A stretch of DNA of 64,000 bases, from positions 62,001-126,000 of the forward strand of contig JACQAG010000042.1 of assembly GCA_016195085.1 (NCBI GenBank), given 5' to 3'. The position numbers and the translations under genes were made by a program. Positions 5,788-50,477 of the stretch are shown here, piece after piece. A model generated the notes under the pieces. That model was not told the origin of the DNA. It saw nothing but the letters and a program-made list of their open reading frames with translations, and did not search any database. The first letter of the stretch is position 1, and each line of letters begins with the position of its first letter. Source of the stretch: Pseudomonadota bacterium (GTDB lineage: Bacteria > Pseudomonadota > Alphaproteobacteria > SHVZ01).

Positions 5788-6511
5788 CGATCACTTCAGC
5801 GTTGCTGCGGATGTCCCGGGGCGTGCCCTCGGCGATGATCCGGCCCTCCGCCAAGACGAGGATGCGGCTGCAGAGGGCCATGACGAAGTCCATGTTGTGC
5901 TCGATCACGATGAAGGTGGCTTTCTGGCTCTCGTTGATCGCCTGCAGCCGGTCGCGGAGATTGCCCAGCATGGTCGGATTGACGCCGCCCGCCGGCTCGT
6001 CGAGCAGTACCAGCCGCGGACCCGCCATGAACGCCATGGCGACATCGAGCAGCTTCTGCTGGCCATAGCTGAGGCGGCCCGCCCGCTCGGCGGCCACGGG
6101 CGTGAGGCGGAAGAACTCGATCATGGTCTCGGCCTCGGGCCTCAAGCCCGCATCGGCGCGTCCCAACAGGCGGGAGAGCATCGAGCCCCGATGCTCCTGG
6201 CCGGCAAGGATCAGATTGTCGCGGACCGAGAGCTCAGGGAAGACCTGCAGGAGCTGGAAGGTGCGGCCGACGCCGAGCCTATTCAGATCGCAGGGTCGCA
6301 TGCCGGTGATCGGCCTGCCGTTGACATGGACCGCCCCCGAGCTCGGCCTCAATTGGCCCAGCACGCAGTTGAACAAGGTCGACTTGCCCGACCCGTTGGG
6401 GCCGATGATGCCGAGGATCTCGCCTTCGCCGAGAGCAAAGGAGACGTCGTCGACGGCGCGAATGCCGCCGAAGGACTTGCAGAGATGGGAGACCTCGAGC
6501 ACCGGGCTCAT
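5768..6511 (-). CDS. livG: ABC transporter ATP-binding protein, LivG type
   Basis: Second ATPase of the HAAT importer, 247 residues. Walker A is GPNGSGKST, the signature region LSYGQQKLLDVAMAFM and Walker B LVLLDEPAGGVNP, followed by the switch His in IVIEHNMDFVM. SYGQQ in place of SGGQQ is common in LivG. The start ATG overlaps the livM stop by four bases, which fixes the start; the frame stays open much further upstream but only over livM in another frame. Confidence 0.92.
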   Translation of the reverse strand: MSPVLEVSHLCKSFGGIRAVDDVSFALGEGEILGIIGPNGSGKSTLFNCVLGQLRPSSGAVHVNGRPITGMRPCDLNRLGVGRTFQLLQVFPELSVRDNLILAGQEHRGSMLSRLLGRADAGLRPEAETMIEFFRLTPVAAERAGRLSYGQQKLLDVAMAFMAGPRLVLLDEPAGGVNPTMLGNLRDRLQAINESQKATFIVIEHNMDFVMALCSRILVLAEGRIIAEGTPRDIRSNAEVIDAYLGH

Positions 6512-45796: not shown

Positions 45797-46585
45797 ATGG
45801 ATTGGCTGAGCGTCGGGCCGGCGGTGGCGACCGCCTTTCTAGGCTCGCTGGTGGAGGCGGTGGAGGCGCTCACCATCGTCTTGGCGGTCGGCACCGTGCG
45901 CGGCTGGCCGCCGGCGCTCCTGGGTGCGGCCGGCGGCCTCGCGGCGCTCGCCCTCATCGTGCTGCTCTTGGGTCCGGCCTTGTCCTCGGTGCCGCTGTCG
46001 CTCCTGCAGCTCCTGGTCGGCACCTTGCTGCTCCTCTTCGGCATGCGCTGGTTGCGCAAGGCGATCTTGCGGGCTTCCGGCATCGTGGCCCTCCATGACG
46101 AGGATGCGGCCTATGCCGAGGAGACCAGCCTCCTGCGCGCCGAGCGCGTGCGCCGGATCGCCGGCTGGGATGCGGTGGCCGTGGTCACCACCTTCAAGGC
46201 CACTATGCTGGAAGGGCTCGAGGTGGTGTTCATCGTGATTGCGGTCGGCGCCTTCGGCCAGCTGCTCGTGCCCGCCAGCCTCGGCGCCTTGGCCGCCTGC
46301 CTGCTGGTGGTCGTCGTCGGCATCATGCTGGCGCGGCCCTTGGCACGGATCCCGGAGAACACCCTTAAATTCGCCGTCGGCGTGCTGATCTCCGCCTTCG
46401 GCACGTTCTGGGTCGGCGAGGGAATGGGCCTCTCCTGGCCCGGCGACGATCTCGTCATCCCGGTCCTGGCGCTGGTCCTGCTGGCGGTGGCGCTGGGCTC
46501 GGTGGCGCTCGCCCGGCGCATCGTCTCGGCGCCGGCCGAGCCGGAGGCGCGAACCCTGGGTTCGGGGAGCGCCCGCCATGGCTAG
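45797..46585 (+). CDS. COG4280-type multispanning membrane protein
   Basis: A 262-residue protein with about six to seven helices. Two similar segments, LVEAVEALTIVLAVGTVRGW near residue 20 and MLEGLEVVFIVIAVGAFGQL near 145, suggest an internal duplication with paired Glu residues in the membrane, as in the Gdt1/UPF0016 cation exporters. Between them lies a soluble loop, HDEDAAYAEETSLLRAERVR. The family is annotated only as predicted membrane protein; metal or proton transport is my inference. The ATG follows GGAGG closely. It overlaps the next small gene by eight bases. Confidence 0.75.
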   Translation: MDWLSVGPAVATAFLGSLVEAVEALTIVLAVGTVRGWPPALLGAAGGLAALALIVLLLGPALSSVPLSLLQLLVGTLLLLFGMRWLRKAILRASGIVALHDEDAAYAEETSLLRAERVRRIAGWDAVAVVTTFKATMLEGLEVVFIVIAVGAFGQLLVPASLGALAACLLVVVVGIMLARPLARIPENTLKFAVGVLISAFGTFWVGEGMGLSWPGDDLVIPVLALVLLAVALGSVALARRIVSAPAEPEARTLGSGSARHG

Positions 46586-46796
46586 CCTCTTGGCCGGGCT
46601 CAGCGAGCTCCTCGGTCTCTTCGTCGACGATGGCAGCCTCGCCGTGGGCTTGCTCGTGTGGCTCGCCGTGGTCGGGCTGCTGGCGCCAAGAGCCCCGCTC
46701 GGCGCCGAGGCGATGGCGGCGATCCTGTTTCTCGGCTGCCTTGCCATCCTCATCGAGAATGTGCGCCGCACGGCGCAGCGCCGTCGGAAGGGTTGA
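46578..46796 (+). CDS. Small membrane protein coupled to the COG4280 gene
   Basis: A 72-residue protein with two helices, SLAVGLLVWLAVVGLLA and AMAAILFLGCLAILI, and a basic end RRTAQRRRKG. Its ATG lies inside the end of the preceding gene (8-base overlap), so the two are probably translated together and may form a complex. No family is recognised. Confidence 0.7.
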   Translation: MASLLAGLSELLGLFVDDGSLAVGLLVWLAVVGLLAPRAPLGAEAMAAILFLGCLAILIENVRRTAQRRRKG

Positions 46797-46822: not shown

Positions 46823-47185
46823 CTAGGAGGCGAGGCCGGCGCGCTCCTTCAGCCCTTCCTTGCCGTATTGCAGCACCTGCACCTTCTCCAAGGTGACCAG
46901 CCCGCTCTGCATCATCCGGTCGAGGACCGGCAGGAATCCCCTGATCTTGGCCTCGGTGTCGACGATCTCGACGACGATCGGCAGGTCGTAGGATAGCCGC
47001 ATGATCTTCGCGGTATGGAGCCGGCTGGAATGGCCGAAGCCCATCGGCCCGCGCAGCACGGTGGCACCGGCGAGATGCACCTCGCGCGCCTTCAGCACGA
47101 TGGCTTCGTAGAGGGGCTGATGCTCGAAGCGATCGTTCTCGCCGAAGAAGATCCTGAGCAAGACCGCGTCCTTGGGAATCTGCAT
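46823..47185 (-). CDS. DUF190 PII-like protein
   Basis: A 120-residue protein of the DUF190 family, which has a PII-like ferredoxin fold and usually forms trimers. Motifs are LLRIFFGENDRF at the start, ARGxxLAGATVLRGPMGFGH in the middle and LPIVVEIVDTEAKI. DUF190 genes are often found next to crcB. Here it follows the antiporter by 26 bases on the same strand, so it should be read from the fluoride-riboswitch transcript. It may sense a ligand and modulate the antiporter (inference). Confidence 0.9.
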   Translation of the reverse strand: MQIPKDAVLLRIFFGENDRFEHQPLYEAIVLKAREVHLAGATVLRGPMGFGHSSRLHTAKIMRLSYDLPIVVEIVDTEAKIRGFLPVLDRMMQSGLVTLEKVQVLQYGKEGLKERAGLAS

Positions 47186-47211: not shown

Positions 47212-48441
47212 CTAATCCGCTTTTTGTCCGAGCTCGGCCGTTGCTGTCGCCGTCGCCGCAGTCGGCAAAGAAGCCGCTTCATCCTCGACGCCAGCCGGCA
47301 GCAGATGCCTCGGCAAATAGAAGGCATTGGCAATCAGCGTCGGTGCGACGGCGCTGGCGACCACCGCTGCGACCAAGGCCGAATATTGCGATTGGTCGAT
47401 GATGCCGTGCGCGAGGCCGAAGAGCGAGGAGATCGTGCCGAAGGTAAGCCCGGTCGACATCATCAAAGTCGTGTAGATGCCCTCCTGGCGAGGCGATCCG
47501 AAAGCCCGCGCGGTCGGATAGACGCCGACGAACTTGGTCGCGAGCTTGACGACCAGCATCACCAGGAAGGCAGAAGGTGCCGCGATCAGAGCCGGCAGGG
47601 AGACGAACGAGCCGGCGCGGATGAAGTAGAACGGCGTCAGGAAGCCGAAGCACAAGGTCCGGAGCCTGCGGATCAGGATATGGTCCTTGCCGACGCTGCC
47701 GGCGAGGATCATGCCGATGAGATAAGACGGCAGCACCGCCTCGCTGTCGGCCCAGGTCGCCAGCGCCCCCAGTCCAAACAGCAGCAGCAAGAGGTATTTG
47801 GTTTCGAGCTCGGAGGGGCGGCCGCCGTAGCGCCGGAAGAACTCCGTGGTGAACCACGGCAGGATCGCCAGCGCGGCGATGACGGCGGCAAGGAAGATCA
47901 ACGTCCTCAGCGTGAACGGGGCGAAGATGAGGCCGAGCGCCAGCACCGTGCCGAGATCGGTGATGAAGCATGCCGCCAGCACGACCTTGCCATAGTCGGT
48001 GGCGTTGAAGCCGAATTCGAGCATGACCGCGTACACCACGGCGACCGAGGTCGTGGACATGGCCACACCGGCGAGCCAGCTCGCTATCGGATCCCAGCCG
48101 AGGAGGTAGCGCGCGGCCGCCGTGCAGCCGAGGAAGGGTGCAAGGAAGCTGATGAAGCCGATAGCCCCGGCCTCCTTCCAGCGCGCTCGGAACACAACCG
48201 GGTCCAGCTCGGCGCCGGCGAGGAAAGTGAGCACGATGGCTCCGGTCCCGGAGAGGAATCTGATCCAGGTCTCGTCCGTGCCGAGGATGGCGGCGCCGAT
48301 CGCCGCCCCGATGATGAGCTGCGCGATGGTGCCGACGACGATCTCGGAAAGCGCGGTCGCGATCCTGAGCCAAATGGATATGAGCGTCGCTACGAGCGCC
48401 AGCCCGAGCCACAGCGCAGCCTGGGTCCAAATCTGAGTCAT
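47212..48441 (-). CDS. CPA2-family cation:proton antiporter under a fluoride riboswitch
   Basis: A 409-residue membrane protein with about twelve helices. Stretches such as FLAGAELDPVVFRARWKEAG, AMSTTSVAVVYAVMLEFGF and AACFITDLGTVLALGL (with the ion-binding Asp in the TDL segment) mark the Na+/H+ exchanger core. The ATG at 48441 has GAGGT seven bases ahead. A fluoride aptamer and terminator lie in its leader, 35-150 bases upstream. Exchangers of this type are known among genes controlled by fluoride riboswitches. Whether it moves fluoride, Na+ or protons is not shown. Confidence 0.93.
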   Translation of the reverse strand: MTQIWTQAALWLGLALVATLISIWLRIATALSEIVVGTIAQLIIGAAIGAAILGTDETWIRFLSGTGAIVLTFLAGAELDPVVFRARWKEAGAIGFISFLAPFLGCTAAARYLLGWDPIASWLAGVAMSTTSVAVVYAVMLEFGFNATDYGKVVLAACFITDLGTVLALGLIFAPFTLRTLIFLAAVIAALAILPWFTTEFFRRYGGRPSELETKYLLLLLFGLGALATWADSEAVLPSYLIGMILAGSVGKDHILIRRLRTLCFGFLTPFYFIRAGSFVSLPALIAAPSAFLVMLVVKLATKFVGVYPTARAFGSPRQEGIYTTLMMSTGLTFGTISSLFGLAHGIIDQSQYSALVAAVVASAVAPTLIANAFYLPRHLLPAGVEDEAASLPTAATATATAELGQKAD

Positions 48442-48474
48442 GGTGACCTCACATCCGTTTCGGGCGGCGGGCCA

Positions 48475-48499
48475 CAAAAAACCCGCCGGCTTGGCGGGT
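48475..48499 (-). terminator. Terminator of the fluoride riboswitch expression platform
   Basis: On the minus strand, ACCCGCC-AAGCC-GGCGGGT forms a 7-bp GC-rich stem directly followed by a T-run (48481-48476). It lies between the aptamer and the antiporter start, as expected for a transcription switch. Confidence 0.92.
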
Positions 48500-48529
48500 C
48501 GTCATCGACCTCCCTCCGCCATCTTGCGC

Positions 48530-48580
48530 GGTAGGAGTCATCAGCCTCTCTAGGCAGTTATCGGGGAACTCCATCCCCAT
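48530..48580 (-). promoter_or_regulatory. Fluoride riboswitch aptamer (crcB motif)
   Basis: On the minus strand the sequence contains GGGGATGGAGTTCCCC, then ATAACTGCC, and ends GGCTGATGACTCCTACC. All three conserved blocks of the fluoride aptamer are present (GGnGATGG, the pseudoknot-forming middle and CTGATGACTCCTAC), in the right order and spacing. The intrinsic terminator 30 bases downstream forms the switch. Fluoride should prevent termination and turn on the antiporter and the DUF190 gene. Confidence 0.95.
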
Positions 48581-48757
48581 CCATCACGCCAAGACTTAGC
48601 ATCCTGCGGTTGGGATTTCCAGACGGCCCTAGGAAGCTCGGTTGCGCGCCCTGGCTCTCGACCGCCGGCCGATGCAGATGGCTAGCGGCTTCGGCTGCGA
48701 TCGTGATCAAGTAGGCGATGCCGGCAGAGGACGGCGGCAGCGGAGAGTCGGAAGGAC

Positions 48758-49141
48758 ATGAACTATCTCTGGGTGGCGCTCGGCAGCGCCTTGGGGGGCA
48801 CGGCGCGCTATTGGGCTTCGGGGTTCATCGCCTCCCAGTTCGGCGAAACCTTCCCCTGGGGCACCATCATCGTCAACGTGACCGGCTCTTTCGTCATCGG
48901 CCTCTTCGGCGCCCTCGGGCTGCCGGAGGGGCGCTTCATTCTCGATCCCTCCCTGCGTATCTTCGTCATGGTCGGAATCTGCGGCGGCTATACGACATTT
49001 TCTTCCTTCAGCCTGCAGACGCTCAACCTCGTGCGCGACGGCGAATGGCTCTATGCCGGCGCCAATATTCTCTATTCGGTCGTGCTGTGCCTGGTCGCCG
49101 TGTGGCTCGGCCATGTCGCCGGCCAAGCCATCAACCGCTAG
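48758..49141 (+). CDS. crcB: Fluoride channel CrcB/Fluc
   Basis: A 127-residue dual-topology fluoride channel with four helices. Motifs are GSALGGTARYWASG, the GTIIVNVTGSFVIG segment with the pore Asn, and GICGGYTTFSSFS, which holds the Phe and polar residues that line the path. GGAAGG lies before the ATG. It is divergent from the riboswitch-controlled antiporter; no aptamer is seen in its own 160-base leader. Confidence 0.95.
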   Translation: MNYLWVALGSALGGTARYWASGFIASQFGETFPWGTIIVNVTGSFVIGLFGALGLPEGRFILDPSLRIFVMVGICGGYTTFSSFSLQTLNLVRDGEWLYAGANILYSVVLCLVAVWLGHVAGQAINR

Positions 49142-49205
49142 CTGCTGCCGGTTGACGCTGGCGGTGTAGCGTCCATGATGCTCGAGTGTGATCGAGGAGG
49201 TGACG

Positions 49206-50477
49206 ATGGACTCCGCGACTGAGCTCGAAGGACGCGCCGCCGCCCTGGTGGACGAGGCGCGGCTCTGGCGCCGGCACATGGAGATGGCGAAGCTGGGCGC
49301 CACGCCCAAGGGCGGGGTCCGGCGTCCGGCCCTCACCTCCGACGACAACCGGGCCCGGGCGCTCCTAGCCGAATGGGGTGCGGCAATCGGCTTCACCAGC
49401 GCCATCGACCCCATCGGCAATTTCTTCGTGCGCCGCGAGGGGAGCGAGGCGACGGCGCTGCCGGTGGTGAGCGGCTCGCACACCGACACCCAGCCCTCCG
49501 GCGGCAAGTTCGACGGCATCTATGGGGTGCTGGCGGCCTTGGAAGCGATGGAGGCGATCGAGCGCGCGGGCATCAAGACCCGTCGGCCGATCGAAGCGGC
49601 GGTGTGGACCAGCGAGGAGGGCGGATCCAGGTTTCAGCTGGGCTGCCTCGGCTCCAGCGTGTTCGCCGGCGCCACACCCTTGGCCGATGCGCTCGCCGCC
49701 AAGGACTATGACGGCGTCAGCGTCGCGACCGCGATCGAAGAGACCAGGCGCGCGGTGCCGATGGCGGCCGACCGCGCGCTTGGATTCCCGCTCTCGGCCT
49801 TCGTCGAGGCGCATATCGAGCAGGGACCGGAGCTGGAAGCGGTGGGGAAGACCATCGGCATCGTCACCGTCATCCAGGGCGCCCGCCGTTTCCTCATCGA
49901 GGTCACCGGCGAGGACGGGCATGCCGGCACGGTCAAGCGGGCGTTGCGCAAGGATGCGTTCCTCGCCGCCATCCGCATGGCCGCCGCGCTCGAGCGGCAT
50001 TTCCATGACCCCGAAGACGTGGTGCGCTTCACCATCGGGCGCTTCGTGGTGACGCCCAATGCACCCGCGGTCATTCCCGGCCGCGTCATCTTCACCGTCG
50101 ACTTCCGCCACCCCGAGCCTTCGGTCCTGGACCGTCTGGGCGACGGTGTGGCCCGGATCTGCGAAGCGGCGAAGGGGCCTTGCGGGGTCAAGGTCGAGCA
50201 GACTTCGGCCACCAAGCCGGTACACTTCTCCGGCCTGGTGCCGGACCTGGTCGAAGCCGCGGCCCGGCGCCTCAAATTGCCGGCGATGCGCATGCTCTCA
50301 GGCGCGGGCCACGACTCGATCTATCTCAATCGCTGCTGCCCGACCGGCATGATCTTCGTGCCCTGCGAGAAGGGGATCAGCCATAGCGAGATCGAGAACG
50401 CCGCACCGTCCGACCTCGCCGCCGGCGCCCGGGTGCTGGCCGAGGTCTTGGTCGAGCTCGCCAACCGTCCCGATTGA
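49206..50477 (+). CDS. Zn-dependent M20 amidohydrolase (N-carbamoyl amino acid/allantoate type)
   Basis: A 423-residue cytoplasmic hydrolase that cleaves carbamoyl or ureido groups. Metal and active-site motifs are GSHTDTQPSGGKFDG, TSEEGGSRF, FVEAHIEQGP, the dimerisation loop DGHAGTVKR and the final HSE in KGISHSEIEN. The ATG at 49206 has GAGGAGG ahead; a GTG six codons upstream is possible. Substrate could be an N-carbamoyl-L-amino acid, allantoate or ureidoglycolate. It stands alone, though a TAXI binding protein follows. Confidence 0.92.
   Translation: MDSATELEGRAAALVDEARLWRRHMEMAKLGATPKGGVRRPALTSDDNRARALLAEWGAAIGFTSAIDPIGNFFVRREGSEATALPVVSGSHTDTQPSGGKFDGIYGVLAALEAMEAIERAGIKTRRPIEAAVWTSEEGGSRFQLGCLGSSVFAGATPLADALAAKDYDGVSVATAIEETRRAVPMAADRALGFPLSAFVEAHIEQGPELEAVGKTIGIVTVIQGARRFLIEVTGEDGHAGTVKRALRKDAFLAAIRMAAALERHFHDPEDVVRFTIGRFVVTPNAPAVIPGRVIFTVDFRHPEPSVLDRLGDGVARICEAAKGPCGVKVEQTSATKPVHFSGLVPDLVEAAARRLKLPAMRMLSGAGHDSIYLNRCCPTGMIFVPCEKGISHSEIENAAPSDLAAGARVLAEVLVELANRPD

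Follow-up and report, generated by a model that had tools for sequence, protein, structure and literature searches.

A fluoride riboswitch upstream of a CPA2-like antiporter and a DUF190 gene, with crcB divergent, in an alphaproteobacterial genome

The fluoride aptamer of the crcB motif (RF01734) was expected to turn gene expression on by antitermination (Weinberg et al., 2010; PMC2864571), and Na+/H+ antiporters are the next most common class of genes under fluoride riboswitches after the exporters (PMC11139923). Antiporters of this class, together with those of plasmid-borne antiporter-UspA-MutS clusters, belong to the same subfamily as the antiporter described here, share 70–75% identity with it and also have an aptamer upstream. 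In the plasmid clusters crcB is located nearby, whereas in the window, which denotes the entire 64,000-nucleotide stretch of DNA that was analyzed, the antiporter gene lacks a neighboring UspA gene and directly adjoins a divergent crcB gene. The nearest operon is that of a Rhodospirillaceae metagenome-assembled genome (loci L049/L110), in which the switch, antiporter, crcB and DUF190 genes follow each other on one strand. Its antiporter and DUF190 protein are 80% and 84% identical, respectively, to those of the window and its leader is of the same kind, but its crcB gene is within the operon on the same strand whereas that of the window is divergent and outside the switch. We consider it probable (~0.75) that the window carries a fluoride-activated riboswitch that acts by transcription attenuation on a fluoride-stress operon of two genes, the antiporter followed by DUF190, that this operon is a trimmed form of a widespread one, and that crcB lies outside its control in cis. 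The aptamer, the terminator, the identities of the genes and the recurrence of the arrangement among relatives are established by the analysis, whereas fluoride binding, switching and the physiological roles at the locus are what we infer.

The aptamer was located at positions 48525–48587 on the minus strand with a cmscan score of 57.4 bits (gathering score 34; E 2.7e-13 over the whole window). It is the sole fluoride aptamer in the window, and a covariance-model search found it to be single-copy in the 4.8 Mb genome. The original prediction, which covered 48475–48757 and thereby the terminator, the aptamer and the divergent intergenic space, had reported the conserved fluoride-aptamer blocks on the minus strand and had proposed a covariance-model search of both strands; that search returned only this match. 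Stems P1 and P3 and the pseudoknot between the loop and the 3′ strand (GGAGU/ACUCC) are complete, with every pair present. Among 105 distinct aptamers the structure is 93.8% paired, changes on both sides were observed at 11 of 13 pairs, and none of 500 shuffles attained the covariation score. The window RNA shares aptamer sequence, P1, P3, pseudoknot and a downstream terminator platform with RF01734 from which it does not differ essentially, and details of the platform match those of its alphaproteobacterial relatives.

An intrinsic terminator, also predicted originally, follows the aptamer. The consensus scan placed it at 48475–48500 on the minus strand as GACCCGCC-AAGCC-GGCGGGUU and a U run, with an eight-pair stem at 48500–48480 (−) that precedes the T run. 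Between the aptamer and terminator lies GCGGAGGGAG, with which the aptamer 3′ strand CUCCUACCGC is able to pair; the anti-aptamer strand GGCGGAGGGAGG (48509–48520, minus strand) forms 8 of 9 pairs with this 3′ strand. A nine-base complementarity of this type with at least 8 of 9 pairs was present in all 16 related leaders examined, compared to an average of 1.5 leaders with shuffled tails, and position 6 of the pairing alternates between A-U, G-U and G-C. As 8% of shuffles of the window sequence also attain 8 of 9 pairs, the case for the anti-aptamer strand rests on the relatives.

Equilibrium folding of the window leader without constraint produced the anti-aptamer hairpin and the terminator together. 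When the aptamer 3′ strand was blocked to mimic the fluoride-bound state, the region 48510–48497 (−) instead formed an antiterminator hairpin, GGUCG-AUGA-CGACC, that captures part of the overlapping terminator 5′ arm, and pairing within the terminator stem became less probable, with the mean falling from 0.97 to 0.39. The terminator of locus L119 responded more sharply (0.93 to 0.006), those of L127 and L049 showed a smaller response than L119, and those of L141, L038 and L109 hardly changed. The folding therefore supports coupling of the expression platform to the aptamer 3′ strand without proving a switch. In the mechanism that we propose, the aptamer 3′ strand would pair with the anti-aptamer strand when fluoride is absent, leaving the terminator arm free, and transcription would end before the antiporter gene. 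Binding of Mg-fluoride would lock the 3′ strand within the pseudoknotted aptamer, and the purine-rich region thus freed would pair with part of the terminator 5′ arm, thereby allowing the polymerase to read through.

The purine-rich strand might alternatively act in translation, as the ribosome-binding site of a leader open reading frame (48505–48449, minus strand) whose translation would melt the terminator or be coupled to that of the antiporter. The window does read GGAGGGAGG-UCG-AUG, and in locus L128 the anti-aptamer strand itself is the ribosome-binding site of the antiporter gene. However, any strand complementary to CUCCUAC will look like a Shine-Dalgarno sequence, the window leader contains a good terminator, and the leader peptide as compared by eye is not conserved among relatives, because of which we regard translational control here as very unlikely. 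The anti-aptamer strand provides this reading frame (48449–48505, minus strand) with a strong ribosome-binding site; the frame crosses the terminator and stops at the antiporter's own ribosome-binding site. Elsewhere, L128 has tandem aptamers (5907–6001) with the anti-aptamer strand serving as the ribosome-binding site of the antiporter, and the leaders of three other Hyphomicrobiales loci (L122, L135 and L175) are without a terminator and contain CUCCUGC as a mimic, which could base-pair with that site. Judged from the leaders of Hyphomicrobiales and those with terminators, one switch head appears to drive both translational and transcriptional platforms.

For the window we retain attenuation of transcription, which a promoter located between the aptamer and antiporter gene would bypass. 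No match to the promoter consensus was detected in this interval, which is weak evidence as many alphaproteobacterial promoters diverge from the consensus that was scanned. The divergent intergenic space at 48588–48757 must house the promoters of both transcripts and similarly contains none that the consensus scan recognized.

The first gene after the terminator encodes a cation:proton antiporter of 409 amino acids (47212–48441, minus strand; PF00999, 111 bits against a cut-off of 26.2) whose start methionine at 48441 is conserved in alignments with relatives. The CPA2 subfamily model TIGR00932 is the best NCBIfam match, although its 97.1 bits are under the cut-off of 238.3, and the protein is filed as CPA2-like on the basis of its fold and its similarity to KefC and NapA. 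The ion-binding Asp, D162, is invariant in the subfamily and is located in the helix that bears the DD pair in NapA. In place of the first D of that pair the subfamily has T or N, and the resulting TD or ND suggests, from general knowledge of the family, that exchange may be electroneutral. Cytoplasmic pH drops as HF enters. The exchanger could either bring pH back or, in the manner of KefC, lower pH and so reduce the trapping of HF; when induced, it would adjust pH and ions under HF stress. The aptamer, terminator, antiporter (48441–47212) and DUF190 gene (47185–46823) lie in this order on the same strand, as envisaged originally. It had further been proposed that the switch acts on an exchanger rather than on the channel: by position the antiporter and DUF190 genes are under the switch and crcB is beyond its reach in cis, but the contrast with the channel reflects the gene order of one genome.

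The extent of the arrangement was assessed by a scan with an antiporter alignment of a genome collection representing 84,980 species, from which the best 80 loci were kept. These range from Proteobacteria to Acidobacteria, Nitrospirae and Omnitrophota. When aptamers were sought within 2 kb upstream with a model built from alphaproteobacterial aptamers, 70 of the 80 best loci proved to have one; of the ten others, two have <150 bases of sequence upstream. The antiporter is accompanied by UspA in 70 of these 80 loci and by DUF190 in 53, crcB is on the same strand in 43, and both crcB and DUF190 are on the same strand in 41. Two gene orders dominate: antiporter-UspA-crcB-DUF190 (for example in L108, L119, L135 and a Methylocystis plasmid) and, in beta- and gammaproteobacteria, aptamer-crcB-DUF190-antiporter-UspA. 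On plasmids of Klebsiella and Enterobacter, the antiporter gene is accompanied by UspA and MutS genes, with crcB in the vicinity. The operon of the window would be a trimmed version of this widespread aptamer, antiporter, UspA, CrcB and DUF190 operon. The combination of switch and exchanger is therefore ordinary, as it belongs to a widespread fluoride-resistance operon, and the novelty claimed for the arrangement mostly falls away: antiporters under fluoride riboswitches are a recognized class (PMC11139923), the aptamer precedes 70 of the 80 relatives, and the window locus amounts to a typical fluoride-stress operon in which crcB appears to have been rearranged.

The divergent crcB gene encodes a fluoride channel of the Fluc type (48758–49141, plus strand; CrcB equivalog NF010802, 203.4 bits against 140) and is single-copy in the genome. 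An aptamer belonging to crcB itself was sought and ruled out: with filters off nothing exceeded 5.3 bits elsewhere in 48400–49300, and in the same interval the Rfam scan gave no other family above cut-off, only sub-threshold chance matches. The gene thus reads from 48758 on the plus strand without an aptamer of its own, in agreement with the original prediction. It is followed by an M20 gene of the allantoate amidohydrolase/carbamoylase type (49188–50477, plus strand), and in the family's six other genomes crcB always lies immediately before the same amidohydrolase gene. No aptamer was detected at the crcB place in these six relatives; a marginal match of 22 bits in one of them (G386) is situated away from that place and probably reflects chance. 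None of the six relatives has the antiporter, and DUF190 is missing from the four that were searched for it. In two family relatives (L285 and L286), the open reading frame divergent from crcB encodes a PAS/histidine kinase. As all six relatives have crcB at this place without aptamer or antiporter, the antiporter-DUF190 block appears to have been added beside a long-standing crcB locus, and the divergent crcB without an aptamer appears to result from local rearrangement. The gene lies at the usual crcB place of the lineage, beyond control by the switch in cis.

The block would have arrived either without crcB or with a crcB gene that replaced the native one in reverse orientation. In the latter history an entire antiporter-crcB-DUF190 operon would have been acquired and then rearranged. 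The window CrcB is 66% identical to the operon-encoded CrcB of L049, compared to 55–57% for family relatives, and the CrcB tree sets it apart from the native group (127 columns). However, the location of the gene before the amidohydrolase is the one native to the family, the alignment of 127 columns is too short to decide between the origins, and approximately unbiased tests on it rejected neither grouping (p 0.20 and 0.28). We view replacement as a serious possibility whose chances fall a little short of even. With either history, a channel without an aptamer is a matter of local history and not a regulatory principle.

The second gene of the operon begins 26 nt after the antiporter gene and encodes a DUF190 (COG1993) protein of 120 amino acids (46823–47185, minus strand) that is single-copy in the genome. 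Its family membership follows from a PF02641 score of 135.6 bits (cut-off 23.4), and the PII-like character proposed for it was borne out by a predicted structure with a PII fold (pLDDT 82, one low-confidence loop), for which the best structural matches were the DUF190 structures 2dcl and 1o51 followed by CPII, CutA and SbtB. The proteins PH1503 (2DCL) and TM0021 (1O51) share both the family and the PII-like fold with the window protein. In comparison with L049 it is the most conserved of the three products (84%, against 80% for the antiporter and 66% for CrcB). A PII-like role for DUF190 is a fair inference.

The company kept by DUF190 was also surveyed in an independent sample of 40 loci, taken across the phylum at about one per genus. 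The neighbor was crcB in 17 of 40 loci, CLC in one, at which there are three DUF190 genes, and the antiporter in none. Strong DUF190 matches co-occur with the riboswitch in 5 of the 385 genomes of a class sample, where ~0.5 would be expected by chance (p = 5e-5; p = 5e-4 without the window's own genome); weak matches from the class search (L088–L097) belong to another subfamily and were left out. At least six loci have the order aptamer-DUF190-antiporter with no crcB detected nearby, including L114 and L144 for which membership of the DUF190 family was confirmed. On balance this genomic company favors the exporter, which DUF190 seems to follow more than it does the antiporter.

These patterns bear on the proposal that DUF190, as a trimeric PII-like protein, binds and controls the antiporter, with the exchanger replacing the channel as target of the switch. 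The proximity of the two genes (26 nt), the loci with aptamer, DUF190 and antiporter in which crcB was not found, and a PII-like fold that also matched SbtB and the SbtA-SbtB complex, in which a transporter is bound by a PII-like protein, are all compatible with it. Nevertheless crcB is the usual neighbor (17 of 40 against 0 of 40 for the antiporter in the independent sample), and some operons pair DUF190 with CLC with no antiporter nearby (L244). A special partnership with the antiporter is thus not borne out, the loci without crcB notwithstanding, and we judge this proposal unlikely. In the attenuation mechanism favored above, DUF190 would be a co-induced PII-like protein that is likelier to be tied to the CrcB exporter or a general stress response than to the antiporter alone. 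More tentatively, and with doubt prevailing, DUF190 proteins could serve bacterial fluoride resistance in general as PII-like control subunits that are induced by the riboswitch, sense adenylate or the fluoride/Mg state and gate an exporter or antiporter; in the window the DUF190 protein would link the operon to the crcB gene outside the switch.

No relevant paper linking DUF190 to fluoride or crcB was found in the open full-text literature, although such a link may be recorded in papers behind subscription or in gene tables, and the role of this common companion of fluoride exporters appears unstudied. Fluoride operons of many phyla regularly include a member of this uncharacterized PII-like family, next to three different transporters (CrcB, CLC and the antiporter), and if DUF190 regulates export, it would add a post-translational layer of fluoride resistance above the riboswitch.

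The wider survey yielded further arrangements of the family. A third, divergent DUF190 subfamily directly follows genes for CLC-type transporters in fluoride loci (L113, 1184–1552; L132, 3430–3789; L244, 2855–5530), with three DUF190 genes around one CLC in L244. In L121 (4178–5524) a DUF190 domain is fused to four CBS domains within a fluoride operon, which hints at adenylate sensing. DUF190 genes also are located beside CusA/CzcA heavy-metal RND pumps in L104, L105, L257 and L258 (Phenylobacterium, Caulobacter, Sphingomonas and Anabaena plasmids). Within the window, a gene for an OFeT_1-like permease (PF16955) and an open reading frame of 72 amino acids without family assignment occupy 45797–46796 on the plus strand, convergent with DUF190, and this region has a DNA paralog (68%) on another contig of the genome (C48). 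A dispersed short repeat of ~55 bases at approximately 44614–44678 matches some twenty other places in the genome at 81–95%.
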